This document shows positions 379-19,532 of a stretch of 64,000 bases of DNA, piece by piece (within the stretch, counting starts at the first letter, position 1; every line of letters starts with the position of its first letter). The DNA lies in assembly GCF_018129025.1 (NCBI RefSeq), contig NZ_JAAEDI010000004.1, forward strand, positions 1 through 64,000. Reading direction: 5' to 3'. The position numbers and the translations under genes are program-made. Origin of the DNA: Neoroseomonas terrae (lineage in GTDB: Bacteria; Pseudomonadota; Alphaproteobacteria; Acetobacterales; Acetobacteraceae). The notes below the pieces were generated by a model that saw only the letters and a program-made list of their open reading frames with translations, made no database searches and had not been told where the DNA came from.

Positions 379-2247
379 ATGGATGAGGGCGACCTCAGGC
401 CGTTCGGCGTGCATGCAGTAACGGGCGGCGCGACCGCTGCAATACCCGCACCCGGCGCCGAAGGTATCGACTCCTGCATCTTCGACGATCGCGAAACGCG
501 CTGCCGACTGTCGGGACGAACCGGGAACGTCTTCCACGCTTACCTCCCCGGCCTCGCTGAAGGCACGCACTATGGCCTTGGCGCTCATGGTTCCCGTGTT
601 TTGCGGCTCAATCCCCGAAAGCTGTTGCTTGACCCCTGGGCGCGGGAGATCAACCGGCCCTTCACGATCAACGCCGCGCTGTTCGACGATGATCCGGCCG
701 ATAGCGCACCTTTTGTGCCAGCTCCTCGATCTGCCGCAAGGAAGGGGGCGGTTAGCGTTTATGAACTGCACGTCCGCGGCTTCAGCAGGCATAACCCGGA
801 GATCCCCGATCGAATTCGCGGGACCTTCGCGGCCCTCGGGCACCCCGCCTCAATGGCCTATCTGCGCGGACTCGGCGTCACTCCTGTCGAGATCATGCCC
901 GCGGCGGCCTGGGCCGACGAGCAGCACCTTGGACCTCTCAGACTCACCAACTACTGGGGTTACAACCCGATCGGCTGGCTGGCGCCGGTGGCCGCACTTT
1001 CCGAGGCCGTCGATGTGATTCTGGACGTCGTACTGAACCATAGCGCGGAGGGAGGGCCGAGCGGCCCAACCCTTTCGCTGCGTGGGTTGCACGATGCGAG
1101 CTTGTACCGCGCTCAGGACGGCGGCTACGCGAACGAGACAGGCTACGGCAATAGCCGCGCCCTCGACAGTCCCTTTGCGCTGCACCTCGCCATAGATGCG
1201 ATGCGTCATTGGCTCGATCAGGCGGGGCTGGCGGGGCTGCGGCTCGACCTCGCTACAACGCTGGGCCGCCGTGCGATGGGCTTCGATCCGGACGCGCCGC
1301 TGCTACAGGCGATACGGCAGGACCCGCTGCTTTCACAATGCTGGATCATTGCCGAACCCCGGGATGTTGGACCCGGCGGCTATCAACTGGGCGCGTTCCC
1401 CCCGGGCTGGGGCGAGTGGAATGACCGTTTCCGCGACGACGTCCGACGCTTCTGGCGAGGCGATGCGGGCAGTTTGAACGCGATGGTGACGCGGCTTACG
1501 GGATCACGCGACGTGTTCGGCACCCGGCCCGCGACGGATCCGGTGAATTTCATCACGGCGCATGACGGCTTCATTCTCGCCGCCCTCGTCAGCCATGAAC
1601 ACAAGCACAATGAAGCGGATGGCGAGGACAACCGCGACGGTGCCGATTGCAACCTTTCTTGGAGCCACGGGGTGGAAGGGCCGAGCGACGCGCTGCGCGG
1701 GCGCCGCATCTCCGACGTCCGAGCATTGCTTGCGACGCTGTTGGCAGCACGCGGCACGCCGATGCTGTCCATGGGCGATGAGGCCGGTCGCAGCCAGCAG
1801 GGCAACAACAACGCCTGGTGCCAGGATAATGCGCTGTCCTGGTTTGACTGGCTCGGCGCGGATGCGGAGCTGACGGCATTCACCACGCGCCTCATTGCAG
1901 CGCGTAGCGCTCATCCCGCGCTGCATGCCCCGGCGCCGCTGCTGGGGCTGGCGCATGAATCCGACGAGGCGGACGTGCGCTGGCTCCGCCTGGATGCATC
2001 GCCGATGGCTGAGGCGGATTGGAACGACCGCGCTGGGCGTAGCGTAGTGATGCTGCTGCATGCCTTCGGTGATCGCGTGCTGGTGGCGCTCCACGGAGAC
2101 TGCACTGAAGCCCGCCTTCGCTTGCCGCAGGCGCGCGCTGGCCATCGTTGGCGCATCCTCGCGGACACTGCCGATCCCGCGCGTTGCAGCATCGCAGTCG
2201 AGGAGGTGCGGTTGGCGCCCGCTCCGTTCTGTGGTGTGCCGAGATGA
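379..2247 (+). CDS. glgX: Glycogen debranching enzyme GlgX, divergent paralogue
   Basis: GH13 isoamylase-type debranching enzyme, 622 aa, expected to hydrolyse alpha-1,6 branches of glycogen or limit dextrin in the cytoplasm. A short CBM48-like N-terminal region is followed by the GH13 barrel. The four conserved GH13 regions are visible: DVVLNHSAEGG, the nucleophile in LRLDLATTLG (Asp290), the acid/base in IIAEPRDVGPGGY (Glu326), and FITAHDGF (His395, Asp396). It is shorter than the second GlgX at 13202-15265 and lacks the usual HGPW motif of the N-terminal part (here AHGSRVLRLNP), so its substrate preference may differ. The ATG start is the first possible one in frame and aligns with the GlgX N-terminus. 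Its stop overlaps the malQ start (ATGA), so the two are probably translated together. Function as a debranching enzyme is confident; the exact substrate is not. Confidence 0.88.
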   Translation: MDEGDLRPFGVHAVTGGATAAIPAPGAEGIDSCIFDDRETRCRLSGRTGNVFHAYLPGLAEGTHYGLGAHGSRVLRLNPRKLLLDPWAREINRPFTINAALFDDDPADSAPFVPAPRSAARKGAVSVYELHVRGFSRHNPEIPDRIRGTFAALGHPASMAYLRGLGVTPVEIMPAAAWADEQHLGPLRLTNYWGYNPIGWLAPVAALSEAVDVILDVVLNHSAEGGPSGPTLSLRGLHDASLYRAQDGGYANETGYGNSRALDSPFALHLAIDAMRHWLDQAGLAGLRLDLATTLGRRAMGFDPDAPLLQAIRQDPLLSQCWIIAEPRDVGPGGYQLGAFPPGWGEWNDRFRDDVRRFWRGDAGSLNAMVTRLTGSRDVFGTRPATDPVNFITAHDGFILAALVSHEHKHNEADGEDNRDGADCNLSWSHGVEGPSDALRGRRISDVRALLATLLAARGTPMLSMGDEAGRSQQGNNNAWCQDNALSWFDWLGADAELTAFTTRLIAARSAHPALHAPAPLLGLAHESDEADVRWLRLDASPMAEADWNDRAGRSVVMLLHAFGDRVLVALHGDCTEARLRLPQARAGHRWRILADTADPARCSIAVEEVRLAPAPFCGVPR

Positions 2248-4028
2248 CCAACGTGCGGCGAGCGGACACGTCGTCCGACCCCGTGCTGCTGGGAGATTTG
2301 GCGCGCGCCGCCGGTATCGATACGGACTGGCAGGACGTCGACGGACGGCGCCACGTCGTGCCGGCCGAGACTCTCCGGGGCGTGCTTGCGGCGCTGGATC
2401 TACCGGCGAATAGTGCGGCGCAAGCACGTGACAGCCTTGCTCGGCGCCGCGCGTTGCCCGTCGTGCCGACCCCCGGGTCGGGGCATTGCTACCCGCCGCC
2501 CGAGGGGCGCCGGTATGCCATCGTGGCGCAGACCTTCTCGTTGCGTCGTAGCACGGATCAAGGCATCGGCGATTACACGGCACTGGCCGAACTGGGGGCA
2601 GGGGCTCCGGGTGCGGCGCTCATCGGTCTCAGCCCTCCCCATGCGCTGATGCCGGTGGAGCGCGATCGAGCGAGCCCATATCAGCCGTCCGACCGACGCT
2701 TCCTCGAACCTGTTCTGCTCGACCTGGCCGCACTGGCGCCGATGGGGGAGACGGTGGCTGCCGCGCTCGACGTTGCTGAACCGGCCTTTGCGGCGCTCCG
2801 CGAATGCACGTGCGTCGACTATCCAGCCGTCTGGGCGACCAAGCGACCCGTGCTGGAGGCGGCATTTCGCGCCGCGCCGCGAAAGGAACTCGATGCCTTC
2901 CATCGCGCGGGTGGTCGGGTGCTAGATGATTTCGCGACCTTCGCCGCGTTGTCCGATCGCTTCGGTCCCCGACGCGCTTGGCCGGCTGGCTTTGAACATC
3001 CCGGCGACGCGGGCATCGCCGCATTTCGTGCCAATGCGACGGACGCAATCCGCTTCCATGTCTTTCTGCAGTGGCTGTGTGATCGCCAGCTAAAGGAGGC
3101 TGCAGCAGCCGGGCCCGGTCTCTATCGCGATCTTGCTGTCGGTGCGGCACCTGACGGATCGGAGGTCTGGTCGCAACCCACCCGCTTCCTACGTGGCTTT
3201 TCCATTGGTGCGCCGCCCGATCCGTATTCGGTTTCAGGCCAGATCTGGGGCATTCCGGTGCCGGACCCGCATCGTTCGGCAGCGGAGGGGCACGCCGGCT
3301 TCGCCGCACTGGTCGCCGCCAACATGCGCCACGCCCGCGCGCTGCGCCTCGATCACGCCATGGGTCTCGAACGGCTGTTCGTGATTCCGGACGGCGCGGA
3401 GGCGCGCGACGGCTGCTACCTGCGCTATGACGCCGGCGGACTGATGACAGCCCTCGCTCGCGAGAGCCGCGCGGCGCAGTGCAGCGTCATAGGCGAGGCG
3501 CTGGGCACTGTGCCGGAAGGCTTTAGGGACCGGCTCGCGACCGCGGGCGTGCTCGCTTACCGAGTGCTGTGGTTCGAGCGGGATGCCGCAGGCCTGCGGC
3601 ATCCCAAGCATTGGCCTGCCTTCGCTGCCTGCTGCGTGTCCACCCATGACCTGCCACCTCTGGCCGGTTGGTGGCAGGGCAGTGACATTGCCGAAGCTGA
3701 AGCGCTCGGCCTGCTTGCCCCAGCGGGTGCCATCCTGGCGCGGCAGCACCGTGCGGAAGACCGCGCCGCGGTCGCCGCGGCCGCTGGTACGGATGTCGCC
3801 ACCTTCAATCCCGACGCGGCGGGCGCTGTCTATCGCCACGTCTCCCAAGCGCCCTGCGCCCTGCTGCTGGTGCCCACGGAAGACCTGATCGGCGAGACGA
3901 ATGGCGTGAACCGGCCAGGCACCGACAAGGAACGCCCGAACTGGCGACTGCGCCATCCGGTTACCATGGATGCGCTGTTCGCGAATCCCTATGCCACGGC
4001 GATCATGAACGCCATCGGTCGCCACTGA
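2244..4028 (+). CDS. malQ: 4-alpha-glucanotransferase (amylomaltase)
   Basis: GH77 amylomaltase, 594 aa, which transfers maltooligosaccharide segments between alpha-1,4-glucans and releases glucose. Family motifs appear in order: DQGIGDYTALAELG, SPYQPSDRRFLEP, the nucleophile in LRLDHAMGLERL (Asp370), the acid/base in IGEALGT (Glu418), and CVSTHDLPPLAGWW (His468, Asp469). The ATG at 2244 overlaps the glgX stop by four bases. A longer in-frame extension to 2148 is possible but lies entirely inside glgX and has no family similarity. With glgX1 it would recycle the short linear chains released by debranching. It converges on glgB with only six bases between the stops. Confidence 0.93.
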   Translation: MTNVRRADTSSDPVLLGDLARAAGIDTDWQDVDGRRHVVPAETLRGVLAALDLPANSAAQARDSLARRRALPVVPTPGSGHCYPPPEGRRYAIVAQTFSLRRSTDQGIGDYTALAELGAGAPGAALIGLSPPHALMPVERDRASPYQPSDRRFLEPVLLDLAALAPMGETVAAALDVAEPAFAALRECTCVDYPAVWATKRPVLEAAFRAAPRKELDAFHRAGGRVLDDFATFAALSDRFGPRRAWPAGFEHPGDAGIAAFRANATDAIRFHVFLQWLCDRQLKEAAAAGPGLYRDLAVGAAPDGSEVWSQPTRFLRGFSIGAPPDPYSVSGQIWGIPVPDPHRSAAEGHAGFAALVAANMRHARALRLDHAMGLERLFVIPDGAEARDGCYLRYDAGGLMTALARESRAAQCSVIGEALGTVPEGFRDRLATAGVLAYRVLWFERDAAGLRHPKHWPAFAACCVSTHDLPPLAGWWQGSDIAEAEALGLLAPAGAILARQHRAEDRAAVAAAAGTDVATFNPDAAGAVYRHVSQAPCALLLVPTEDLIGETNGVNRPGTDKERPNWRLRHPVTMDALFANPYATAIMNAIGRH

Positions 4029-4034
4029 CGCGTC

Positions 4035-6180
<2,146 letters not shown>

Positions 6181-6188
<8 letters not shown>

Positions 6189-9100
6189 GCGCCGTCTCCG
6201 GGCCCAGGACGCGCGCGGCGAGTTCATCGAAGCCACGCAGCGGAATGTGCAGCCAGCCGGGACGATTGGCGGCCTCGTAGCAGATTTCGTAGGCTGCCTT
6301 CTCCAGAAGGAAGAGATCGAGCAGTGCTTGCTCGCCCTCCGGAACGATCCACGGTCTTGGCGCGAGGGCATGGGCGCCGCGATAGGCAGCGACGAAGGCT
6401 TCGCTCGCGCTCTCGCGGAAATTCATCAGGAGTTCGGCGATGCGTTCGTTCGGCACGCCCTGGCCACTTTCCCGCTCCGCACGAACGCCGGCGGCCGCGT
6501 AATCGAAGGATCGCAGCAGGCCCGCGACGTCGCGCAGGGGGGACGACTTCGCGCGACGCTGCTGAAGTGGCTTCGCCGGCTCTCCTTCAAAATCAATGAT
6601 GCAGGCGTCGCCCTGGACGACCAAGGCCTGGCCGAGATGGAAATCACCATGGACGCGGGTCTTTAGCGTCCTCTCCGCCGAGGTCCCGAGCCGCACCGCC
6701 GCGGCGAGCAGTGCGTCCCGTCGCGCGATCAGGCCGTCAGCGAGCCGCTGCTGTGCCTCCGTCTCCCAGTTCGCGACGCCTTCCAGCGCCGTGAGTGCCA
6801 GCGCGATTTGGGCGGCCGCTGCCTCCCCCCACGCCTGCGCATCGGCAGACGTAGCGAGTTCAGGCCGAAAGGCCGGGTCGTCGCTTTCCTCCGCGAGCAT
6901 CGAATGCATCTCCGCCAGCCGCCGACCGAGCGCACTCGCGAAGGTCAGGTAGTTGTCGAACACCCCATCGCCTGCTTGCCTCGGAGGATCGGCCAAAGCT
7001 TCGGCATCGAGCATCCGGCTGAGGAACTCCGTCGTCCACGTCCATCCATCACCCTGATTCCGAACGAAGCCCTGCAGCACCACCAGCGTCCGAGGTATCC
7101 CATCCGGCGAGATCCTCACGACTTCTCCAAGCAGCGGCGCCGTTTGGCCGAAGCCGCGCTCGGTCAGGTAGCGTGTCATCTCCGTTTCCGGACTGATGCC
7201 CTCCGTCACGCGCCGCACCAGCTTCAGCACGGCGTGCTCTCCAATAATCAGGGAAGAGTTCGATTGCTCGGCGGAGAGGCGCCGGATCTCCGGATCCTCG
7301 GGAAATTCGACGGCGTCGAAGATCGACGTCGGCAGGAAGTGGATCTCACCCTGTCGCAGGGGAATCACCGAGCGGTCCCGCATGCCGCGAAGGACCGAGC
7401 CTGGCAAAACGTCCAGCGCAAAGGCGTCCGTCAGCACGCCGACGCGCCGACCGCGGCGGACCCGCGCGAGTGCAAGCTGCTGCGGCAGTGCCGCAGTTGT
7501 TTCGTCCTCCCAAGCGATGCCCATAGGCAGGAGGTAGGAGCCGGTGCCCGCCGCGTCATTCGCCTCCACTTCAGCGAGTAGGACCTCCCGACCATCGGCG
7601 CCGGCAATCGGTTCCGCGAAGCCAAGGCGAGCTCGGACCGCCGCTGCCTTACCAGCGAACCACCGCCGGCGCGTGAGGTAGGGCGGCAGGATGTCGGTCT
7701 CGATGATCTTTCGCGCTGCCGGCTCGAGAATCTCGGCCAGACTCTTTCGCAAGACCAGGGTCGATAGCTCCGACATGGGCTCGGGCGCGGGCGCGTGCCA
7801 GTTAGGCAAGGCTGCCTCCGTGGCGAGTAGGAACCAGTAGAAGCCGTAAGGCGGCAGGGTCACCAGATAGGCGAGCTGTCCGATAGGCGGAAAGGATGCA
7901 CCGCCAACAAGTTCAACAGGGACGCGGCCGGCAAATGGCGCCAGGTCGAGCTCCACGGCTTGCGCCGTGCGGGAAAGATTAGATACGCAAAGGATAGTCT
8001 CGCCGTCATGTTCACGCAGATAGGCGAGGATCTTGCGATTGCCGGGATAGAGGTAGCTGAAGCTGCCGCGGCCGAAGGCGCGATGACGCTTACGCACCGT
8101 CAGCATGCGGCGCATCCAATTCAGCAGGGAATGTTGGTTGCTCGACTGCGCCTCAACATTGACCGCCTCGTATCCATAAACCGGGTCCATGATCGACGGC
8201 AGAACCAAGCTGGCAGGGTCGCTGCGGCTGAAACCACCATTGCGGTCAGGTGACCATTGCATCGGCGTGCGCACGCCATCGCGGTCGCCGAGATGGATGT
8301 TGTCACCCATGCCGATCTCGTCGCCATAATACAGCACCGGCGTCCCCGGCATCGACAGCAAGAGCGAGTTCATCAGTTCGATGCGGCGCCGGTCATTCTC
8401 GAGAAGCGGTGCGAGCCGGCGCCTTATGCCGAGATTGATCCGTGCGCGACGGTCCGAGGCGTAGGTATCCCAGAGATAGTCGCGCTCCTTGTCCGTTACC
8501 ATTTCGAGCGTCAGCTCGTCGTGGTTACGTAGGAAGATGGCCCATTGGCAGTTGGGCGGAATTTCCGGCGTCTGGCGCAAGATGTCGGTAATCGGGAAGC
8601 GGTCCTCCTGCGCCATCCCCATGTACATGCGCGGCATCAGCGGGAAGTGGAAGGACATGTGGCACTCGTCGCCATCGCCGAAGTAGAGCTGCGTATCCTC
8701 AGGCCACTGGTTCGCCTCGGCGAGCAGCATGCGGCCCGGCGCGATACGATCCAGCTCGGCGCGGATCTTCTTCAGGACGGCATGTGTCTCCGGCAGGTTC
8801 TCGTTGTTCGTACCATCGCGCTCGATCAGGTATGGGATGGCATCCAGGCGCAATCCATCCACACCGGCATCGAGCCAGAACCGCATGACCGAGAGGACCT
8901 CCTTCAACACACGCGGATTATCGAAATTCAGGTCGGGCTGGTGGCTGTAGAAGCGGTGCCAGAAATAGGCCCCCGCCACGGGATCCCAGGTCCAGTTCGA
9001 CTTCTCGGTGTCGAGGAAGATGATGCGCGTACCGTCATACTTTCGATCGTCGTCGGACCAGACGTAGAAATCACGATGCACCGAACCCTTCCTCGCGTGG

Positions 9101-9486
9101 CGTGCACGCTGGAACCAAGGGTGCTGGTCGGAGGTATGATTGATGACCAGTTCCGTGATGACGCGAATGCCACGCTCATGCGCCGCGGCGATCAGTCGGC
9201 GGATATCGGCCATGTCTCCATATTCAGGATGCACCATCTTGTATTCGGCAATGTCGTACCCGTCATCGCGCCGCGGCGACGGGTAGAATGGCAACATCCA
9301 TATCGTGTCAACGCCGAGATCGGCGATGTAATCGAGCTTCTGGAGCAGACCTGGAATGTCGCCGGAGCCGTCATTGTTGGAATCGAAGAAGGATTTGATG
9401 TGGAGCTGATAGATGACTGCGTCCTTGTACCAGAGCGGGTCACGCTCAGCCATGGAGGCGACTGCATCGGGCGTCCTGCGCGGCAT
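6181..9486 (-). CDS. treS: Trehalose synthase-maltokinase fusion (TreS-Mak)
   Basis: Bifunctional protein of 1101 aa. Residues about 20-560 are the GH13 trehalose synthase, which interconverts trehalose and maltose; it shows [46 protein letters not shown] (nucleophile Asp215), [11 protein letters not shown] (Glu257) and [13 protein letters not shown] (Asp323). The C-terminal half, from about residue 600, is maltokinase (Pep2-like), which makes maltose-1-phosphate with ATP; it shows [10 protein letters not shown] (catalytic Asp near 948) and [11 protein letters not shown]. Fusion of the two domains is known in many proteobacteria and channels maltose to GlgE. The ATG at 9486, four bases after the glgE stop, is preferred over an upstream start that would run inside glgE; an internal Met at 9453 has a poorer ribosome site. 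The product is the donor for the neighbouring GlgE. Confidence 0.94.
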
Positions 9487-9490
9487 CGAT

Positions 9491-12400
9491 TCAGATCCTG
9501 TCAGCGGCGCGAAGGCGCCAGATCGCGAAGGGCAGCGCCTGCGCATCCAGGCGAAGGTGGCGATGGGACCCTTCCCATCGTTCCTCGCCGCCGGTCATGA
9601 GGTTCTCAGCAAGGAGAGCCGCGCCGTGGGGGAGCCCCAAGATGGCCTGCGGCAGCTCGATATGGGTCTCTACCGCCGTGCGAGGCGCCATGGAGACTGC
9701 GACGAGTACGACGTTCGACCGGTCGGGGGTCGCCTTCACATAGAGCAGGACACCGTCGTGGCCGGATGCGAGTACCGTGGTGCCGAGATGTGTATGTAGC
9801 GCTGGGTTCTGTCGTCGCAGACGATTCAGCGCGGTGATCTCTGCCTTGATGTTACCGGGTCGGTCATGATCCCAGACGCGGAGTTCATACTTCTCACTGT
9901 CTAAATACTCCTCCTTGCCCGCTCGCAGCGGCGTCGCCTCGCACAGCTCGAAACCGTTATAGACACCCCATAAGCCGGACAGTGTCGCGGCGAGAGCCGC
10001 GCGAACCAGATGGCCCGCCCGCCCCGACTGCTGCAGGAAGGTTGGATTGATGTCCGGCGTGTTTACGAAGAAGTGCGGGCGAAAGAATTCAGACACCGGC
10101 GCGCGGTTGAGTTCGGTCATGTACTCGCCGAGCTCCCACGCCTCATTGCGCCAGGTGAAGTAGGTATAGGATTGCGAGAAGCCGACCTTGGCCAGGCGGT
10201 ACATCACCTTGGGCCGCGTGAACGCCTCGGAGAGGAAGACGCAGTCTGGCTCCCGTGCGCGGACCTCGCCGATCATCCATTCCCAGAATGGCAGTGGCTT
10301 CGTATGCGGATTGTCGACGCGGAATAGCTTCACGCCCTGCCTGACCCAGAATAGCACGACGTCTCGCAGAGCGATCCACAGATCGGGCACTGCGCTCTTC
10401 GCATAGAACTCGACGTTGACGATGTCCTCGTATTTCTTCGGTGGGTTCTCCGCGTAGCGGATCGAGCCGTCGGGCCGATAGGCGAACCAGCCCGGATGCT
10501 CCTTCAGCCACGGATGGTCGGGTGAGCACTGGATCGCGAAATCCAGAGCGATCTCCAGCCCATGATCCAGCGCGGCGGCGACCAGGCGCTGGAAGTCTTC
10601 AAGCGTCCCGAGCGCCGGATGCAGCGCGTCATGACCGCCGGCCTCGGCGCCGATGGCATAGGGGCTGCCTGGGTCGCCGGGGCTGGCCGTCAGGCTGTTG
10701 TTGCGGCCCTTGCGATTCTTCTTTCCGATCGGATGGATCGGCGGGAAGTAGAGAACGTCGAAGCCCATCTCCCGCACGCGCGGCAGCTGCGCAATGACAT
10801 CGTCCAGGGTGCCGTGGCGGTTCGCGTCGTCGCTCTGCGAGCGCGGGAAGATCTCGTACCAGGATGCGAAGCCTGCTGCGCGCCGTTCTGCGTCAAGTGG
10901 CAATACTGGTTCGTGGATCAGCTCGAAGGGACGCTGATCGGCAGCTTGCATCAGTTCCATGATGTCGGGGCGGCCGAACAGCGCCACCGCCGCCGAGGCC
11001 TCCATGTCCGGCATTGCGGCGAGTGCCGCATTGATGCGCGCGGCGCCCATAGTGCAAAGATGAGGACGGCTGGCCTCGAGCAACGTCATGCCCTCGCGCC
11101 GTTCCAACGCGATGTCGATGCCGGCGCCATGCTTGGCCCGGATTTCATCGAGGAAGGCACCGTAAGCATCGACCCAGGCGCAGATGGTATAGGCGTACCG
11201 GCCAACTCGTTCTGGCACGAATTCCGCCGTGTAGACGTCATTCCCCATGTGGCGCATCGGAACTTCACGCCAATCAGTCTCGTCGGCAGCACGCCAGCGC
11301 AGCCGCACGGCGAGTTTCGTCGCTCCGTCAGTGAAGACGTCGGCGGAGACTGTCACGGGATGGCCCACGATGCGCTTCACCGTGAAGCGGCCGCCATCGA
11401 CCGTCGGCGTAACTGCCTCGATCGCGATGCGGGGCGATTGCGCGAAGGCGCGGACGCCAGCGTCACCAAGATCGGGGGAAGAGCGTATCGGGTGGCTTTC
11501 CCCGATGAGAAGGCTCCGCACCTCGGCTGGCTGCAACTCAAGCCGAACATGCCCCTGCATGGAGCCCGCGGTTGGCAACGCTTCGGCGATCTGCCCGGCT
11601 GTTGCCGCCGCGCCGCGATGCAGGGACTTGTTCACCAGCACCAGCATGCGCCTGCCATCGTCGTGCTGCCGCAACACCTGCGTCACGGGCGCACGAGGGC
11701 CCGATATCACGATAGGCGGGCCGCTGGAGGCCGCTCCTCGTTGCAGCCGTCGTTCCCGATTGGCGTCCCGGATGACCTCGAGGAGATCGATCCGAGGGGA
11801 TTGTCGAAGCGCTTCGAAAGCGCGGGCCTGTCCCGGCCCATGACCCATCCGGTTCAGATCGCCGTACTCGAACCCCATCGGCATAAGCCAGGCAGCTCCG
11901 GTCAACGCTGCGAACCTCAGCGCACGCGCGGCCGCTCGCTCTGCCCCGTCGGTATGGCGGCTGGCCAGCCTTGGCGCGAAGGGAGCTTCCGGCATGGCCA
12001 GCACCGGCGCCACCAGAGCCAGCCGCGCGCCTTCCTCACCCCACCAGGCGTCCTCGAAATTCCACCAAGGAAGCGACGAGACAGTGAAGTCGAAGCCCGC
12101 GCTCTTGAGATCGTTGACTTCGGCCGGGCTCAGGCCCGGCGTCCATGCGATGAACTGGATACTACTCCGATCTGCGCGCGCGGCATCGATCAGCGGCTTC
12201 CAGAATCGACAACCGAGCCCGGCATCGAGGCAACGGAACCCTGCGATGCCTGTGTCCGTCCAACGTATGACGCGCCGCGACCACCATTCGATAAGTGCCT
12301 CCGGCGCCGGATCTCGAAGCCGTGCGCCGGGGTCTGACAGCCGCCGCGGATCATGCATCTGATCCGCTTCGGCACCCGCGTGGCGCCATTCGGGATGCTC

Positions 12401-12718
12401 GCGGAGAACAGCGGCGTCGTCATCCACGAGAGCGGTTCGCAGGTCCAGCAACGCCTGCAGCCCCGCGCCTCGCGCCATCTCACAGATGCTTGCCAACCAT
12501 TCGGTGGCATCACCGCCGCCGATACACGCATGCAACTTGTCATGGTCCGATGACAGAAATAGCGTGCCGTCGCGTCCCGCGGCGAAGGGCGGAGCGATGA
12601 GGATGGCGTCGAATCCCAGATCCGCGATGCGCGCCAACGCTCCAGGCCAGAGATCCAGCGCCGGCATCGCGAGCGGGTTGACATAGTAGTATGCGTTAGC
12701 TTGTGCGGCATCCGCCAC
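9491..12718 (-). CDS. glgE: Maltose-1-phosphate maltosyltransferase GlgE with N-terminal degenerate GlgE-like domain
   Basis: Transfers maltose from maltose-1-phosphate to the non-reducing end of alpha-1,4-glucan. The protein is 1075 aa, against roughly 650-700 for mycobacterial and streptomycete GlgE. Residues about 425-1075 are the canonical enzyme: an N-terminal beta-sandwich (TVDGGRFTVKRIVGHPVTV), PPIHPIGKKNRKGRNNS, nucleophile in FRVDNPHTKP (Asp802), acid/base in FLSEAFTRP (Glu831) and NTPDINP (Asp889), with the spacing of characterised GlgE. Residues 1-420 are a second GH13-like domain that repeats GlgE landmarks (HDKLHA, LREHPEW, SLPWWNFEDAWW) but lacks the catalytic pair. The start is GTG, supported by a GAAAGGGGG ribosome site just upstream. 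It leads the treS-mak and glgB unit. Confidence 0.92.
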   Translation of the reverse strand: MADAAQANAYYYVNPLAMPALDLWPGALARIADLGFDAILIAPPFAAGRDGTLFLSSDHDKLHACIGGGDATEWLASICEMARGAGLQALLDLRTALVDDDAAVLREHPEWRHAGAEADQMHDPRRLSDPGARLRDPAPEALIEWWSRRVIRWTDTGIAGFRCLDAGLGCRFWKPLIDAARADRSSIQFIAWTPGLSPAEVNDLKSAGFDFTVSSLPWWNFEDAWWGEEGARLALVAPVLAMPEAPFAPRLASRHTDGAERAAARALRFAALTGAAWLMPMGFEYGDLNRMGHGPGQARAFEALRQSPRIDLLEVIRDANRERRLQRGAASSGPPIVISGPRAPVTQVLRQHDDGRRMLVLVNKSLHRGAAATAGQIAEALPTAGSMQGHVRLELQPAEVRSLLIGESHPIRSSPDLGDAGVRAFAQSPRIAIEAVTPTVDGGRFTVKRIVGHPVTVSADVFTDGATKLAVRLRWRAADETDWREVPMRHMGNDVYTAEFVPERVGRYAYTICAWVDAYGAFLDEIRAKHGAGIDIALERREGMTLLEASRPHLCTMGAARINAALAAMPDMEASAAVALFGRPDIMELMQAADQRPFELIHEPVLPLDAERRAAGFASWYEIFPRSQSDDANRHGTLDDVIAQLPRVREMGFDVLYFPPIHPIGKKNRKGRNNSLTASPGDPGSPYAIGAEAGGHDALHPALGTLEDFQRLVAAALDHGLEIALDFAIQCSPDHPWLKEHPGWFAYRPDGSIRYAENPPKKYEDIVNVEFYAKSAVPDLWIALRDVVLFWVRQGVKLFRVDNPHTKPLPFWEWMIGEVRAREPDCVFLSEAFTRPKVMYRLAKVGFSQSYTYFTWRNEAWELGEYMTELNRAPVSEFFRPHFFVNTPDINPTFLQQSGRAGHLVRAALAATLSGLWGVYNGFELCEATPLRAGKEEYLDSEKYELRVWDHDRPGNIKAEITALNRLRRQNPALHTHLGTTVLASGHDGVLLYVKATPDRSNVVLVAVSMAPRTAVETHIELPQAILGLPHGAALLAENLMTGGEERWEGSHRHLRLDAQALPFAIWRLRAADRI

Positions 12719-13201
12719 TAATGCGGCCCCCTTTCAACCTGCCACGATCGAATCCCGCAGCAGGGGGATAACCGCGCGGAACGGCCCAGGTTTCCCGCGC
12801 GAGATGGTCGCTTCCTGGTGAGGACGGGGCCTGGCGGCGAAAATGCACGGCGCAGAGCCTGCAACTGCTATCGTCCCGGGCGGTTGTAGGATTGGCGCTT
12901 TCCGTCCGGGCGCCCCAGCGAGGATATTGATGTCAGTCTGCGCGCCGAATCTTGAGGAGCGGCTCCCCGGCCGGATTCACAGGTGCAAGCCTCCTCCATC
13001 CGCCAGGGGGCTGCGCTTTTTGCGATCTAACGACGGGGCCTTCGATGCTGGGGAGCAGGCCGACTCTCGCGGGTGCTTGGATGCGGCGCTTTCGCTTATG
13101 GAAAAAAACCCCGACGTTGGTGTGTCGGCCGAACGGTGCGCCGACAAAAGGCAGGCACGGCACGTGACACCGTCCCGGCGTCGTCACAAGCACGTGCGGC
13201 G
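12719..13201. promoter_or_regulatory. Divergent intergenic region between glgE and glgX2 units
   Basis: The 483 bases separate divergently transcribed glgE and glgX2, so both promoters should lie here. Short open frames exist on both strands (for example 12843-13205 + and 12933-13208 -) but have no motif or good ribosome site. The only gene-linked signal I can point to is the GAAAGGGGG Shine-Dalgarno sequence of glgE close to its GTG start. No clear -35/-10 pair or operator repeat was seen. Confidence 0.45.
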
Positions 13202-15265
13202 ATGACAATATCCGAACCTGGGGCGCCGTTTCCCTTCGGTGCCTCGATCACGCAACGCGGTACAAACTTCGCGCTATTTTCGGATAATGCCGACGAGGTT
13301 GAGCTTTGTCTCTTCGACAACCATGGCGACCGGGAAACGGAACGCCTCTCCGTGACCGAATGCACGGACGGCGTATGGCATTGCCATCTTCGCGGGATCG
13401 GACGCGGCCAGGTCTACGGCTGGCGTGTGCATGGTCCCTGGGCGCCGGAGCAGGGTTACCGCTTCAATCCTGCCAAGCTCCTTCTTGACCCCTACGCGCG
13501 GCAACTCGTGGGCGACCTGCGTTGGAACGATGCTCTGCACGCCTACCCTGTCGGCGCGGGCGAGGATGCGGATCTCATCAGGGATGAACGCGACAGCGCT
13601 CAATTCATGCCGAAGGCCCGAGTTGTTGCCGAACTGCTACTCACTGCTACGGCCAAGCCGCGGAATCATTGGCCCAAGACCATCATCTACGAAGGTCATC
13701 TGCGCGGATTGACCATGCGGCATCCGCTGGTGCCGGAAGATGTTCGCGGGACCTTCGCAGCCCTGGGTTCCGCACCGATGATCGAGCATCTGCTCAAGCT
13801 CGGCATCACGGCGGTCGAACTCCTGCCCGTGCAGGCCTTTGCTCAGGACAGGGTCCTCGTCGATCGCGGCCTGCGCAACTACTGGGGCTACAATACCCTG
13901 GGATTCTTCGCGCCGGAGCCGCGCTATCTAGGCGCCGGCGGCTTGGACGAAATTGCGATGGCGGTCGACCGGCTCCATCAAGCTGGGATCGAGGTGATCC
14001 TCGATGTCGTTTACAACCATACCTGCGAAGGAAACCACCTCGGCCCGACATTGTCGTGGCGCGGCATCGACAACACCAGCTATTATCGGCTCCAGCCCGG
14101 CGAACCACGTTACTACGACAACCTCACCGGATGCGGGAACGCGCTGAATACCGAACACCCGCGCGTGCTGCAGATGGTGATGGACAGCCTTCGGCTCTGG
14201 GCGACGGTTTATGGCGTCGACGGTTTCCGCTTCGATCTAGCGACGACGCTCGGTCGTCGGGCCGACGGCTTCGACCCGGGACATCCACTGTTTCACGCGA
14301 TGCGCCAGGACCCCGTGCTGGGTCGCGCCAAGCTGATCATGGAGCCATGGGACATCGGCCCCGGCGGCTACCAGCTCGGCAATTTCCCTCCCGGCTTTTC
14401 GGAGTGGAACGGCGACTACCGCGACGTGGTGCGAGAGTTCTGGACGGGGTCGGAGGGCCTGCTACCGGCGTTCGCGACGCGCTTTGCTGCCTCCTCGGAC
14501 CTCTTCGGTGAGGGCCGGCGACGCCCCTGGTCGAGCGTCAACTTTGTCACCGCGCATGACGGCTTCACGCTGCAGGATCTCGTTTCCTACGAGCAGAAGC
14601 ATAACGAAGCGAATGGCGAGGATAATCGCGACGGCCATGACGACAGCAGGAGTTGGAACTGCGGCGCCGAGGGTGACACCGACGATGTGGACGTACTGGC
14701 CTGCCGGGCGCGCCAGAAGCGCAACCTCCTCGCGACGCTGCTGCTCTCTCAGGGCGTGCCGATGCTGCTGGCGGGTGACGAGATCGGCAACTCCCAGGGT
14801 GGGAACAACAATGCCTATTGCCAGGACAACGAGATCGGCTGGGTGGACTGGACTCGTCAGGATGCGGCGCTGACCGACTTCGTCGCTCGCCTCACGGATC
14901 TGCGCCTGCGCCGAAGTGCATTGTCACGGCCGGCCTTCCTCACGGGCGCCCGGAACGAACGCGGCGTGCCGGATGTTGCCTGGTTTGGCGCCAACGCCGC
15001 GCGGATGACCGAAGGCGAGTGGAATACGCCGCATGCGAAGTGCCTCGTCGTTCGGCTCGCGCCGGCCCAGGCCGGTGATGTTTCTATGCTCATTATGCTG
15101 AACGCTGCGAACCACGGCGTCGAATTGCTGATACCGCCCGGCGGAACAGGGCAGTGGGAGGCCGTGCTAGACACGGCGGAGCAGCTCGAAGGCCAGCGCC
15201 GTGCCGCGGGCGAGAATGTGATCGCGGAGGCTCGATCTCTCGTCGTCTGGGAATCAAGGGCGTGA
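13202..15265 (+). CDS. glgX: Glycogen debranching enzyme GlgX
   Basis: GH13 isoamylase-type debranching enzyme, 687 aa, the canonical copy of the two in this window. It has an N-terminal CBM48 region with FPFGASITQRGTNFALFS and WRVHGPWAPEQGYRFNP, then the barrel with LDVVYNHTCEGNH, GFRFDLATTLGR (nucleophile Asp345), LIMEPWDIGPGGYQ (Glu381) and FVTAHDGFTLQDLVSYE (Asp453). The ATG at 13202 matches the family N-terminus; the frame stays open to 13073 through a GTG but the extra residues look unrelated. It is the first gene of glgX-treZ-treY. This is a classic arrangement in which debranched glucan is fed to TreY/TreZ to make trehalose. Its stop overlaps the treZ GTG start. Confidence 0.94.
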   Translation: MTISEPGAPFPFGASITQRGTNFALFSDNADEVELCLFDNHGDRETERLSVTECTDGVWHCHLRGIGRGQVYGWRVHGPWAPEQGYRFNPAKLLLDPYARQLVGDLRWNDALHAYPVGAGEDADLIRDERDSAQFMPKARVVAELLLTATAKPRNHWPKTIIYEGHLRGLTMRHPLVPEDVRGTFAALGSAPMIEHLLKLGITAVELLPVQAFAQDRVLVDRGLRNYWGYNTLGFFAPEPRYLGAGGLDEIAMAVDRLHQAGIEVILDVVYNHTCEGNHLGPTLSWRGIDNTSYYRLQPGEPRYYDNLTGCGNALNTEHPRVLQMVMDSLRLWATVYGVDGFRFDLATTLGRRADGFDPGHPLFHAMRQDPVLGRAKLIMEPWDIGPGGYQLGNFPPGFSEWNGDYRDVVREFWTGSEGLLPAFATRFAASSDLFGEGRRRPWSSVNFVTAHDGFTLQDLVSYEQKHNEANGEDNRDGHDDSRSWNCGAEGDTDDVDVLACRARQKRNLLATLLLSQGVPMLLAGDEIGNSQGGNNNAYCQDNEIGWVDWTRQDAALTDFVARLTDLRLRRSALSRPAFLTGARNERGVPDVAWFGANAARMTEGEWNTPHAKCLVVRLAPAQAGDVSMLIMLNAANHGVELLIPPGGTGQWEAVLDTAEQLEGQRRAAGENVIAEARSLVVWESRA

Positions 15266-17007
15266 CGCGGTTCGGTCCTGTGCTCCTGCCCGGTGGCGGC
15301 GTGATGTTCCGCCTCTGGGCGCCGGATGCGTGCAGCGTTGCCGTGGCTCTGCCAGGGCGATCCCCCATAGCGATGGAAGCAACCTCAGATGGCTTCTTCA
15401 GCCTGACTGTTTCCGACGCGGGTCCGGGCCAGCGCTATCGGTTCCGCATCGGCGAGCACGAGGTGCCGGATCCCGCCTCGCGCCGGCAGGATGGCGATCC
15501 GGCGGGATGGAGCGTCGTCCAGGCTCCCCTGCCGCCCATGCGCCAGGCCTCTCCGCCGCGCCCCTGGCACGAGGTGATCCTGACCGAGTTGCATGTCGGA
15601 ACGGCGACTCCCGAGGGCACCTTCGAAGGCATCGCGGCGCGCCTTGATCATTTCGCTGCAGCCGGGTTCACCGCGATTGAGCTCATGCCAGTCGCCGAGT
15701 TTCCCGGGTGCCGAAACTGGGGGTACGATGCGGTCTTGCCGTTCGCTCCCGACGAGGCTTACGGCTCTCCCGCAGCTTTGCGCGACCTCGTCGATGCTGC
15801 GCATCATCGTGGCCTCGGCATGGTGCTCGACGTCGTCTACAATCACTTCGGTCCGGAGGGGAACTATGTTTCCCTTTTCGCGGCGCGGTTCTTTAACGCC
15901 GCGCACACCACACCGTGGGGCGACGCTATCGATCTTGGTGAGCCGCTTGTACGGCGGTACTTCATCGAGAACGCGCTCATGTGGCTCACCGAGTACGATT
16001 TCGACGGTCTACGGTTCGATGCCGTGCATGCCTTCGCCGCACCGGGCGGTGACGTGTTTTTGCGTGAGCTCGCGGAGGCCTGCCGCTCTGTGAAGCCAGA
16101 CGCCTGGCTAGTGCTGGAGAATGACGACAACGCGGCGCGCTGGCTCGAACGCGACACAATGGGACGCCCACGCTTCTTCACCGCACAGTGGAACGACGAC
16201 GCGCACCACGCGCTGCACGTCGCCTCGACAGGCGAGCGCCGAGGCTACTACGCCGATTTCTCCAAGGACCCGATTGCGGATGTCCAGCGCGCGCTGGCTG
16301 AGGGCTTCGTCTATCAGGACAACCCCTCAACCCACCGCGGCGGCAAGCGTCGAGGCGAGCCGTCCCGACACCTGCCGCCCACGGCGTTCGTCAACTTCGT
16401 GCAGAACCACGATCAGATAGGCAATCGCCCCCGGGGCGATCGACTGGCGGCAAGCATGGATGCCGCACGTCTCGACCTGCTGCGCTTCCTGTTGCTGCTC
16501 GAACCGGCGGTTCCCTTGTTCTTTCAAGGAGAGGAGGCGGCGCTCGATACGCCCTTTCCATTCTTCTGCGACTTCGCGGGCGAACTTGGGGAGGCGGTGC
16601 GCCGCGGGCGCCGCGAGGAATTCCGGGATCTCTTCCACGGCACCGCCGAGGTTCCTGATCCGCTCGATCCCGCCACGATGGAATCGGCGAAGCTGGCATG
16701 GGATGCGTTGACGCCCACGGCGACGGCGCCGTTCCGCGACCTCGTCGCACATCGCGAGCGCCTTGTCATACCACTGCTTGGCACAGCATACCTTGGCGCG
16801 AGCACCATACGAGAAGGCGCCGCTCTCGTTTGGAGGTGGCGCTTTGCATCCGGGACGCTCTGCCTGGCCGCCAATCTGGACACCATCGCCGTGGATCTGG
16901 ATGTGACACCAACCGCGGGATCCGTGTCGGTTGGCGACGCAGACTTCGACGGAAGCGCGTTGAGGCTGGGAGCGTGGTCGGGTTGCGCCTGGGCCGAGCC
17001 GGCGTGA
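15262..17007 (+). CDS. treZ: Malto-oligosyltrehalose trehalohydrolase
   Basis: GH13 enzyme, 581 aa, which releases free trehalose from maltooligosyltrehalose made by TreY. It shows FRLWAPDACSVAV at the N-terminus, then ELHVGTATPEGTFEGIAARL, NWGYDAVLPFAPDEAYG, LDVVYNHFGPEGNY, GLRFDAVHAF (nucleophile Asp253), LVLENDDNAARWL (acid/base Glu286) and FVNFVQNHDQIGNR. These TreZ-specific versions of the GH13 regions separate it from GlgB. The chosen start is a GTG at 15262 that overlaps the glgX2 stop (GTGA); the frame is open further upstream only inside glgX2. The same kind of overlap links it to treY, so the three genes are very probably one translationally coupled unit. The 581-residue length is normal. 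Confidence 0.93.
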   Translation: MTRFGPVLLPGGGVMFRLWAPDACSVAVALPGRSPIAMEATSDGFFSLTVSDAGPGQRYRFRIGEHEVPDPASRRQDGDPAGWSVVQAPLPPMRQASPPRPWHEVILTELHVGTATPEGTFEGIAARLDHFAAAGFTAIELMPVAEFPGCRNWGYDAVLPFAPDEAYGSPAALRDLVDAAHHRGLGMVLDVVYNHFGPEGNYVSLFAARFFNAAHTTPWGDAIDLGEPLVRRYFIENALMWLTEYDFDGLRFDAVHAFAAPGGDVFLRELAEACRSVKPDAWLVLENDDNAARWLERDTMGRPRFFTAQWNDDAHHALHVASTGERRGYYADFSKDPIADVQRALAEGFVYQDNPSTHRGGKRRGEPSRHLPPTAFVNFVQNHDQIGNRPRGDRLAASMDAARLDLLRFLLLLEPAVPLFFQGEEAALDTPFPFFCDFAGELGEAVRRGRREEFRDLFHGTAEVPDPLDPATMESAKLAWDALTPTATAPFRDLVAHRERLVIPLLGTAYLGASTIREGAALVWRWRFASGTLCLAANLDTIAVDLDVTPTAGSVSVGDADFDGSALRLGAWSGCAWAEPA

Positions 17008-19532
17008 CCGGTGTCTCGGACTGGCGGGCCACCTACCGGTTGCAGTTCCACGCCGGCTTCACCTTTGACGACGCGCTTCGCGTCCTTCCCTACCTGTGCC
17101 GCCTCGGCATCAGCCATGTCTATGCATCGCCTATACAGGGCGCACGGCCGGGATCGACGCATGGTTATGACCAAGTCGATCCCACCTGCATCAACCCGGA
17201 GCTTGGCGGCGAGTTGGGCTTCGAGCGCTTCAGCGATGCGCTGCGCGCGGCTGGCCTCGGCCTGCTGGTGGATATCGTCCCCAACCACATGGCGGCGCAC
17301 CGCACTAACCCATGGTGGATGAGCGCGCTCGCCGGCGGTCCCGAGGGGCCCGCTGCGGGCATCTTCGATATCGACTGGGATCGCCATAGCCAGGTTCTGC
17401 TGCCAGTGCTTGGCGGTACCTTGGCCGAGACGCTGCAGAAGGGCGATATAGCGCTGTCGGTGGATCCGGCAGGGTGGCTGGTCGCCTGCGCCTATGGTGA
17501 GCATGCTTGGCCGTTGCGCGCTGAGGATACCAGCGACCTGCTGGAGGCGGCGGCGCTGCCGGAGGTCGCAAGGCAATGGCGAGAAGATCAGAGCCCGGAG
17601 CGCGCCAAGGCGCGCGAAGCCGTCCGCCGCGTTGACGCAGCCGGCCGTGAGCGGCTCGCGGCGCTTCTGGCCAAGCAGGACCTATCGACGCTGATCGCGC
17701 GGCAGCATTGGCGGCCCACGCATTGGCGCGCGGGCCGGGATGCACTTTCAACCCGCCGCTTCTTCAACATCAATGATTTGATCGGCGTTCGGGTTGAGGC
17801 GGAGAGCGTCTTCGCGCTCATGCATCAGCTTCCGTTGGCACTCCTACGCGCCGGTCGAATAGACGGCCTCCGCATCGACCATATCGACGGCCTTGCTGAC
17901 CCTGCTGGATATTGCGCGCGGTTGCGATCGGAGGCGGGCGCCGAGGCGCTGATCGTTGTCGAGAAGATCCTTGGCGAAGGAGAAGGTCTTCGAACCGATT
18001 GGCCGGTGGACGGGACCACAGGCTATGAGCGGCTCAATATGATCAATCGCCTTTTTGTCTGCCCGGTGGGCCATCGCGCCTTGGCGCAGTCACTCGCGAG
18101 CGATGATGGCGCGGTCGCGGGTGATCCCACGCGGCGGCTTGCCGCCGCGAAGCGCCAGGTGCTGGAGGAGAGTTTCACACCGGAGATCGAGCAGCTCACC
18201 GAGTTGGCTGTCGGCGCGGCGGCGTCCGATCCGGCGCTGGAGTTCGCGGCGCCTACGCTGCGCGCAGCGCTCACCGAGCTGATCGTCCATTTCCCGGTGT
18301 ACCGGAGCTATCTCGTCGCCGCGGAGCCGGCAGCGCCCGACCGGGATCTCTACGCAGCCAGCCTGAGTGCCGCGGAGGCTTGCGGCGATCCATGGATCAC
18401 CGCAGCCGCGAATTGGATAGCTGACACGATCCTGCACGGCTCGGGCCGTGATGCCGCGGCGCTACGCCGCCGGTTTCAGCAGCTTACCGGTCCGCTCATG
18501 GCGAAGGGGCTGGAGGATACGGAGTTTTATCGGAGCGTAGCGCTGCTTTCTCCGAACGAAGTGGGAGGAGATCCCGCATCGCCAAGTATTTCGATCCCCG
18601 CCTTCCACACGTGGGCGGCGCGCCGCGGACTGACGGAGCCGCGCGATATCACCCCGCTGGCGACCCACGACACGAAGCGAGGCGCGGAGACGCGCGCGCG
18701 CCTAAATTTGTTGTCGCATGCACCTGCCGAATGGATTGGAAGGGTGGCACGCTGGCGCAGGATGAATGCAGGCCTGCACGGAAAGGATCGCCCTGACACG
18801 ACGGATCAATGGCTGGTCTATCAGACGCTATTCGGCGCCTGGCCCATCTGCGCCGACCGGCTGTGCACGTTTGTCGTGAAGGCGCTGCGTGAAGCGAAGC
18901 GCCATACCCGCTGGGAGAACCCGAACGAGGTTTATGAGAGGTCGGCTCTCGACTTCGCAGAGGCGCTCCTCGAACATCCGGACGCGGCGGCGTTCCGGTC
19001 AGAGATGGACGCCATCGTCGCGGAGACGGCTTTGGCAGCGCGATACAACGGCTTGGCCCAAGCAGTGCTGCAGCTGACGCTTCCGGGCGTTGTCGACATC
19101 TACCAAGGAACAGAGTTCTGGGACTTTTCCCTCGTCGATCCCGACAACCGGAGACTGGTGGACTACGAACAAAGAGAAGATGGCCTTGGGATGCCCCTGC
19201 CGCCGATCGCGAACGATGAGGTCGGGCTGGTCAAGCAACGCCTGGTCCAAAGGCTGCTCCACCTGCGGCAGTCGCGACCTGAGCTATTTCGTGGCTACGC
19301 GGCGATCCCGTCTCAGGAGGACGGATGGATCGTCTTCACAAGAGGCGGCGGGCGAATGGTTGTGGCGGTGTCCTCGCGGAATTTAGGGGCAGGCGCCTTA
19401 CCGCGGCTACCGGACGGGGTGTGGCATGACGTCCTTGCGGATATGGGGGCGGATGTCCGACAGGCGGTCCGGATCCTTGTGAAGCGGGACGGAACGATAG
19501 CGGACCGGGCCGTGAAACAGCTGAGCGGATAG
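17004..19532 (+). CDS. treY: Malto-oligosyltrehalose synthase
   Basis: GH13 enzyme, 842 aa, which isomerises the reducing-end alpha-1,4 bond of a maltooligosaccharide to the alpha,alpha-1,1 bond of trehalose. TreY hallmarks are present: ATYRLQFHAGFTFDDA, YASPIQGARPGSTHGYD, LVDIVPNHMA, GLRIDHIDGLADP (nucleophile Asp292), VVEKILGEGE (acid/base Glu320), ATHDTKRGAETRARL (His555, Asp556) and the C-terminal DIYQGTEFWDFSLVDPDNRR. The GTG start at 17004 overlaps the treZ stop and places the conserved Tyr-Arg-Leu-Gln-Phe near the N-terminus. The frame is open upstream only inside treZ. It is the last gene of the trehalose-forming unit and acts on the chains freed by GlgX. Confidence 0.94.
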   Translation: MTGVSDWRATYRLQFHAGFTFDDALRVLPYLCRLGISHVYASPIQGARPGSTHGYDQVDPTCINPELGGELGFERFSDALRAAGLGLLVDIVPNHMAAHRTNPWWMSALAGGPEGPAAGIFDIDWDRHSQVLLPVLGGTLAETLQKGDIALSVDPAGWLVACAYGEHAWPLRAEDTSDLLEAAALPEVARQWREDQSPERAKAREAVRRVDAAGRERLAALLAKQDLSTLIARQHWRPTHWRAGRDALSTRRFFNINDLIGVRVEAESVFALMHQLPLALLRAGRIDGLRIDHIDGLADPAGYCARLRSEAGAEALIVVEKILGEGEGLRTDWPVDGTTGYERLNMINRLFVCPVGHRALAQSLASDDGAVAGDPTRRLAAAKRQVLEESFTPEIEQLTELAVGAAASDPALEFAAPTLRAALTELIVHFPVYRSYLVAAEPAAPDRDLYAASLSAAEACGDPWITAAANWIADTILHGSGRDAAALRRRFQQLTGPLMAKGLEDTEFYRSVALLSPNEVGGDPASPSISIPAFHTWAARRGLTEPRDITPLATHDTKRGAETRARLNLLSHAPAEWIGRVARWRRMNAGLHGKDRPDTTDQWLVYQTLFGAWPICADRLCTFVVKALREAKRHTRWENPNEVYERSALDFAEALLEHPDAAAFRSEMDAIVAETALAARYNGLAQAVLQLTLPGVVDIYQGTEFWDFSLVDPDNRRLVDYEQREDGLGMPLPPIANDEVGLVKQRLVQRLLHLRQSRPELFRGYAAIPSQEDGWIVFTRGGGRMVVAVSSRNLGAGALPRLPDGVWHDVLADMGADVRQAVRILVKRDGTIADRAVKQLSG

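Follow-up and report, generated by a model that had tools for sequence, protein, structure and literature searches.

A long GlgE carries an inactivated GH13 half that most likely stems from a separate enzyme family

What is the N-terminal half of the GlgE protein encoded by Neoroseomonas terrae, and where does it come from? The gene lies at 9491–12718 on the minus strand of the window, the 64,000-nucleotide stretch analysed here, and the list of open reading frames gives it as a single uninterrupted frame of 1075 amino acids. A broken reading frame is ruled out, as there is no internal stop. The C-terminal half reads as a complete GlgE (alpha-1,4-glucan:maltose-1-phosphate maltosyltransferase, subfamily GH13_3), and an earlier, sequence-only reading had proposed that the N-terminal half is a duplicated, catalytically dead copy of it. 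Among the relatives listed here, many proteobacterial GlgE proteins exceed 1000 amino acids and bear this additional domain. GlgE is central to a glycogen route that is widespread in bacteria and whose regulation is largely unknown according to a review (PMC11046441).

The gene sits in a glycogen and trehalose cluster. The next gene on the same strand encodes a TreS-maltokinase fusion (6181–9546, TIGR02456 and TIGR02457) that, if called from its first ATG, overlaps glgE by 56 bases, and the branching enzyme GlgB (4035–6371) also lies on the minus strand. The debranching enzyme GlgX (13073–15265), divergent from glgE, TreZ (15154–17007) and TreY (16698–19532) are on the plus strand. A second, shorter GlgX-like protein of 622 amino acids is encoded at 379–2247 on the plus strand, overlapping a MalQ at 2148–4028. 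It scores 606.6 bits against TIGR02100, below the cut-off of 640.9, and an alignment of four GlgX sequences suggests that its triad D290, E326 and D396 is kept, with deletions.

By Pfam, residues 429–1067 form an ordinary GlgE. Domains N and S span residues 429–612 (10883–11434; PF11896, E 1.5e-47), the catalytic barrel, placed by Pfam and alignments, covers residues ∼613–985 (9764–10882), and the C-terminal domain covers residues 986–1067 (9518–9763; PF21702). The catalytic triad D802/E831/D889 is kept, and is invariant across a 33-sequence alignment. Ahead of this core, the N-half comprises a GH13 (beta/alpha)8 barrel (residues ∼8–330, 11729–12697), a beta domain taken from predicted secondary structure (residues ∼331–408, 11495–11728; GH13-chain alignments stop at model residue 403–411) and a linker (residues 409–428, 11435–11494). 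The low confidence of this linker (pLDDT below 50 at residues 409–418) and a full-length pTM of 0.54, in a structure prediction from the 33-sequence alignment, suggest that a flexible connection probably joins the two halves; the low pTM might, however, also stem from the shallow alignment and from parts of the GlgE barrel being modelled with low confidence.

The N-half is poorly recognized by profile and sequence searches. By themselves, residues 1–423 have no Pfam match with an E of 1 or below, their best hit among PDB sequences is the alpha-amylase 3dhu at only E 0.026, and PF11896 is found in the window protein only at residues 429–612, with none in the N-half. The resemblance to GlgE that had been noted nonetheless holds: BLASTP aligns the N-half to its own GlgE barrel at 24% identity over 226 amino acids (E 2e-6), and structure prediction, a step that the sequence-only reading had recommended, gives a full GH13 barrel with a C-terminal beta domain at pLDDT 92 (input: the window protein and 47 of 49 selected relatives, L044 and L047 being left out). 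The 13 best PDB matches of this model in Foldseek are all GlgE, and its VIA Z scores are a tie between 3dhu (33.5) and GlgE (32.8). On the predicted model, GlgE is thus the nearest or joint-nearest fold.

All three catalytic residues have been lost. The positions of D802, E831 and D889 correspond in the N-half to L164 (12227–12229), W192 (12143–12145) and F247 (11978–11980), the places of the nucleophile Asp, the acid/base Glu and the transition-state-stabilizing Asp respectively, as placed by alignments and, for L164, by BLASTP of the two halves. The pairing of Glu831 with Trp192 and of Asp802 with Leu164, and the description of a dead domain fused to a live GlgE, were therefore correct. R162, the GH13 invariant Arg two residues ahead of the nucleophile place, is present.

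I searched 385 alphaproteobacterial genomes with the window protein, and a contig scan yielded 294 relatives, the best 80 of which include Roseomonas, Rhizobium, relatives of both, and Ralstonia. N-terminal regions were collected after removing duplicate loci (L126, L127, L135, L136, L149) and N-parts below 150 amino acids, giving 123, and 116 once seven identical ones were dropped; these include L025, an unrelated open frame lying upstream. Among the 116 distinct regions 14 have an intact triad, 11 of them fused to GlgE and three encoded by a separate gene. These three (L113, L114 and L115), from three of the 385 genomes, all keep Asp/Glu/Asp, and are interspersed with the fused intact members in the N-half tree; they may never have been fused, or may have separated again. 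PF11896 is absent from them and occurs once, ahead of the GlgE barrel, in the five fused proteins among the eight Pfam-scanned relatives. Their best Pfam match is hDGE_amylase (glycogen debranching enzyme glucanotransferase domain, PF14701), at 6e-16 to 5e-14 and above the cut-off, but the best stretch covers ∼95 residues of the 439-position profile, the window N-half has no match to it, and this family is absent from the trees; NCBIfam matches are far below cut-off. Elsewhere in the N. terrae genome, no PF14701 relative is found at E≤0.001 and no second N-half copy at E≤10.

The gene neighbors of these intact members were also compared. The order is KaiC, histidine kinase, GH13, TreZ and TreY in L113, and KaiC, GH13, TreZ and TreY in L115 (the L113 kinase, KaiC and TreY were identified by eye from translations, the other neighbors by NCBIfam). 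This position between a KaiC-like gene, with a histidine kinase in L113, and treZ-treY hints at signal-controlled trehalose synthesis. In genome G317 (L211), TreZ and MalQ-TreY precede, on one strand, a fused gene with an intact triad (L015). In L114 (5595–9196) the N-half gene is directly upstream of glgE, which is itself divided over two overlapping frames, whether genuinely or through an assembly error. Three remoter separate genes with triad-like motifs (L192–L194) join the N-half family as well. Proteins with an intact fused N-half are probably bifunctional. Most simply read, the intact members mean that an active enzyme preceded the dead domain.

I then considered whether a tandem duplication of the GlgE barrel, followed by decay of the copy, gave rise to the N-half. 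The BLASTP match between the halves and the Foldseek ranking both speak for it, and in a 54-row tree the N-half family and GlgE join at 100/98, while a grouping of the N-half family with 3dhu-type amylases is rejected (p 0.005). However, a 45-row tree places the N-half family and the GlgE barrels each in a single clade, at 100/100 and without nesting (rows of both trees were hand-chosen, with for instance 10 of the 14 intact N-halves, and 15 and 13 of 25 GlgE barrels). The N-half family unites with the free-standing intact members at 100/100 in the 45-row tree, and at 99/97 with distant members in the 54-row tree. When the dead rows are left out along with L194 and TreZ, the N-half family and GlgE still join at 99/98.5, and neither the amylase grouping (p 0.145) nor the other alternative (p 0.106) is rejected. 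The profile comparison is divided: a profile of the dead N-halves prefers GlgE (162, against 130 for 3dhu-like amylases), as the sequence-only reading would have it, but one of the intact N-halves prefers amylases (262, against 233 for GlgE), and GlgE itself scores highest against amylases (281). The existence of free-standing intact members without domains N and S, and the tie in VIA Z, also argue against duplication, which I regard as very improbable. As the immediate origin of the N-half, self-duplication of GlgE is rejected on the trees together with the profile comparison; kinship at the level of families remains plausible.

On these sequences the N-half family and GlgE most likely, though not decisively, represent two related GH13 families that are sisters. 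The N-half shares with GlgE the GH13 barrel and C-domain, and the trees place it closest to that family, but it lacks domains N and S as well as the triad, and belongs to its own clade. In the window protein, then, no full triad is retained and GlgE is the best-supported neighbor family, again not decisively. The 3dhu-type alpha-amylases (3dhu, 4gkl) form a clade separate from the N-half family in the 54-row tree, and differ in that the window N-half is dead.

To place the loss of activity, a tree was built from 69 of the 116 N-terminal regions and two outgroup rows, after dropping those more than 72% identical to a kept row or shorter than 250 amino acids. A single change divides the 11 intact from the 58 dead rows. 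The dead side has an SH-aLRT support of 87 when the eroded L027 is included, and of 99 for the other 57 rows. In a tree of the C-halves, for which rhizobia were thinned by hand, 55 of the 57 GlgE with a dead N-half form one clade with one unscored duplicate (SH-aLRT 100), leaving L027 and L029 outside; presence or absence of the N-half changes four times on this tree. These trees indicate that activity was lost once for nearly all dead forms. In L029 (G048:C1:2698498-2701068) the fused N-half reads N/E/D, with an Asn at the nucleophile place and the Glu and Asp kept. It groups with the intact L020 in the C-half tree, was dropped from the N-half tree by the identity cut, and is apparently a second, independent and recent inactivation.

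The dead form is itself conserved. I compared 48 dead N-halves, being the 58 nonredundant ones minus 10 that I judged eroded or shortened, to the 11 intact members. The acid/base Glu is replaced by Trp (W192) in 44 of 48, the transition-state Asp by Phe (F247) in 39 and Tyr in five, and the His preceding it by Pro (P246) in 47, while the Asn-His pair of region I is changed to Asp in 32 and to Arg in 33. Trp and Phe together occupy the second and third triad places in 77 of all 116 rows. The nucleophile place, in contrast, is variable (Leu in 26 of 48; conservation rank 195 of 384). R162 (46/48), W218 (46/48), W219 (48/48) and W225 (48/48) are kept, and none of the four varies among the 11 intact members; two polar residues, R125 (45/47) and E229 (46/48), are fixed in dead forms and not in intact ones. 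Across the former active-site shell (68 columns of my own selection), mean entropy in dead forms is 1.43 versus 2.29 elsewhere (p 3e-11), compared to 0.57 versus 1.41 in intact forms. The catalytic set of the dead forms has changed in concert.

Selection was estimated as the median NG86 dN/dS per group, given here for the N-half and then the GlgE part; groups were hand-picked and named by me, and some include other genera. Values are 0.066/0.081 for the Ralstonia set, 0.173/0.072 for the R. etli set, 0.280/0.087 for the R. leguminosarum set, 0.096/0.048 and 0.114/0.089 for two more rhizobial sets, 0.296/0.169 for the Roseococcus set and 0.321/0.169 for L010, L012 and L013. Full-length dead N-halves thus range from 0.066 to 0.321 across seven groups. 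A shortened Pseudoroseomonas set gives 0.570/0.288 (3 pairs), and the intact set L128–L131, which covers just part of the GlgE half, gives 0.300/0.234. These estimates point to purifying selection on the dead domain, less constrained than the core in eight of the nine groups.

A neutral relic in the process of being lost would fit the 10 of 58 nonredundant dead N-halves that I judged eroded or shortened, the value of 0.57 in one shortened group, and the four presence/absence changes. I nevertheless hold this improbable: dN/dS is far below 1 in full-length dead forms, with the Ralstonia N-half below even its GlgE part, and neutrality is rejected for them on this ground. Combined with the conserved Trp and Phe (or Tyr) replacements, it indicates that the full-length dead form is not freely decaying. 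A retained domain might act as a structural scaffold or oligomerization domain that binds no sugar, which is possible, if not the reading I favor. The hydrophobic refill of the catalytic pocket (W192, F247 and often L164) would suit such a role, and R125 and E229, fixed in dead forms alone, could form new contacts. Non-catalytic GH13 proteins such as plant isoamylase ISA2 and human 4F2hc/rBAT have kept the fold as a partner without the catalytic residues, but these are separate subunits, whereas the dead domain studied here shares a chain with GlgE. Against a scaffold, the kept R162, W218, W219 and W225 are also invariant in the intact, presumably sugar-binding members, and the full-length pTM gives no fixed docking onto the GlgE core. 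Finally, an allosteric role, in which the N-half would sense glucan or maltose 1-phosphate and so control GlgE, is unlikely: the pocket remodelling is concerted and conserved, and regulation of the GlgE pathway is very sparsely studied, its mediation being largely unknown (PMC11046441), but no sign of a phosphate site was seen in the sequence.

The explanation I favor, with a probability of about 0.8, is that the N-half is a pseudoenzyme, derived from a GH13 enzyme of a separate family that was joined to GlgE and later inactivated, and that it now most likely serves as a non-catalytic glucan-docking arm. At the level of residues and trees, this comprises a separate family with intact members, loss of the triad through one intact-to-dead change, purifying selection on the full-length dead form, and consistent substitution at two triad places together with neighbors in the active site. 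Since intact relatives exist both free-standing and fused, and the clades are separate, I infer that a whole, once catalytic enzyme would have been fused to the N-terminus of a proteobacterial GlgE, and then inactivated, once for nearly all dead forms. The dead barrel would be a flexibly tethered arm whose kept aromatic residues dock alpha-glucan chains, or else the glycogen particle, to serve the GlgE active site; the chief alternative is a regulatory contact or a scaffold role alone. A tethered amylase-like arm with kept aromatics may most simply be seen as a glucan-docking module for a chain-extending enzyme, although the refilled pocket would permit a scaffold role almost equally well; in the former −1 subsite, the Trp, the Phe and the frequent Leu may block the pocket, arguing against sugar binding there. 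More speculative, and rather doubtful, is the broader proposal of an apparently undescribed, treZ-treY-linked GH13 family, sister to GlgE and captured by it, its site rebuilt (Glu to Trp, His-Asp to Pro-Phe, Asn-His to Asp-Arg) into a non-catalytic glucan-sensing or docking module that would set GlgE activity in alpha- and betaproteobacteria.

Should the N-half dock glucan or have a regulatory role, findings on short enzymes may not transfer directly to long GlgE. With a natural series from free-standing intact through fused intact, fused dead and eroded to absent, it can be tested directly how a pseudoenzyme domain arose. The intact relatives, some of which neighbor trehalose genes, represent an enzyme family for which no assay was found in the literature searched. 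Nor was a described role for the GlgE N-half found there, although most subscription papers fell outside the search and an earlier description is possible; a 2011 study by Chandra et al. reportedly deals with GlgE distribution. The accessible parts of PMC11046441, PMC7935935 and PMC5042117 do not mention an additional N-terminal half.

Matches to the window protein occur in 41 of the 385 alphaproteobacterial genomes, one of which (G359) has an amylase-like gene by hand tally. In the other 40, a fused N-half, full or eroded, is present in 22 (seven with an intact triad), a separate gene in three and fragments in one, and 14 have none, as judged from frame length and absence of a match, also by hand. 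These 14 GlgE-bearing genomes indicate that the N-half is dispensable in many lineages. Within the genus of the window, just two of 34 other genomes have a match (G011 and G012; L002 and L003), and the G011 copy is only 50% identical to that of the window, which suggests patchy or horizontal inheritance.
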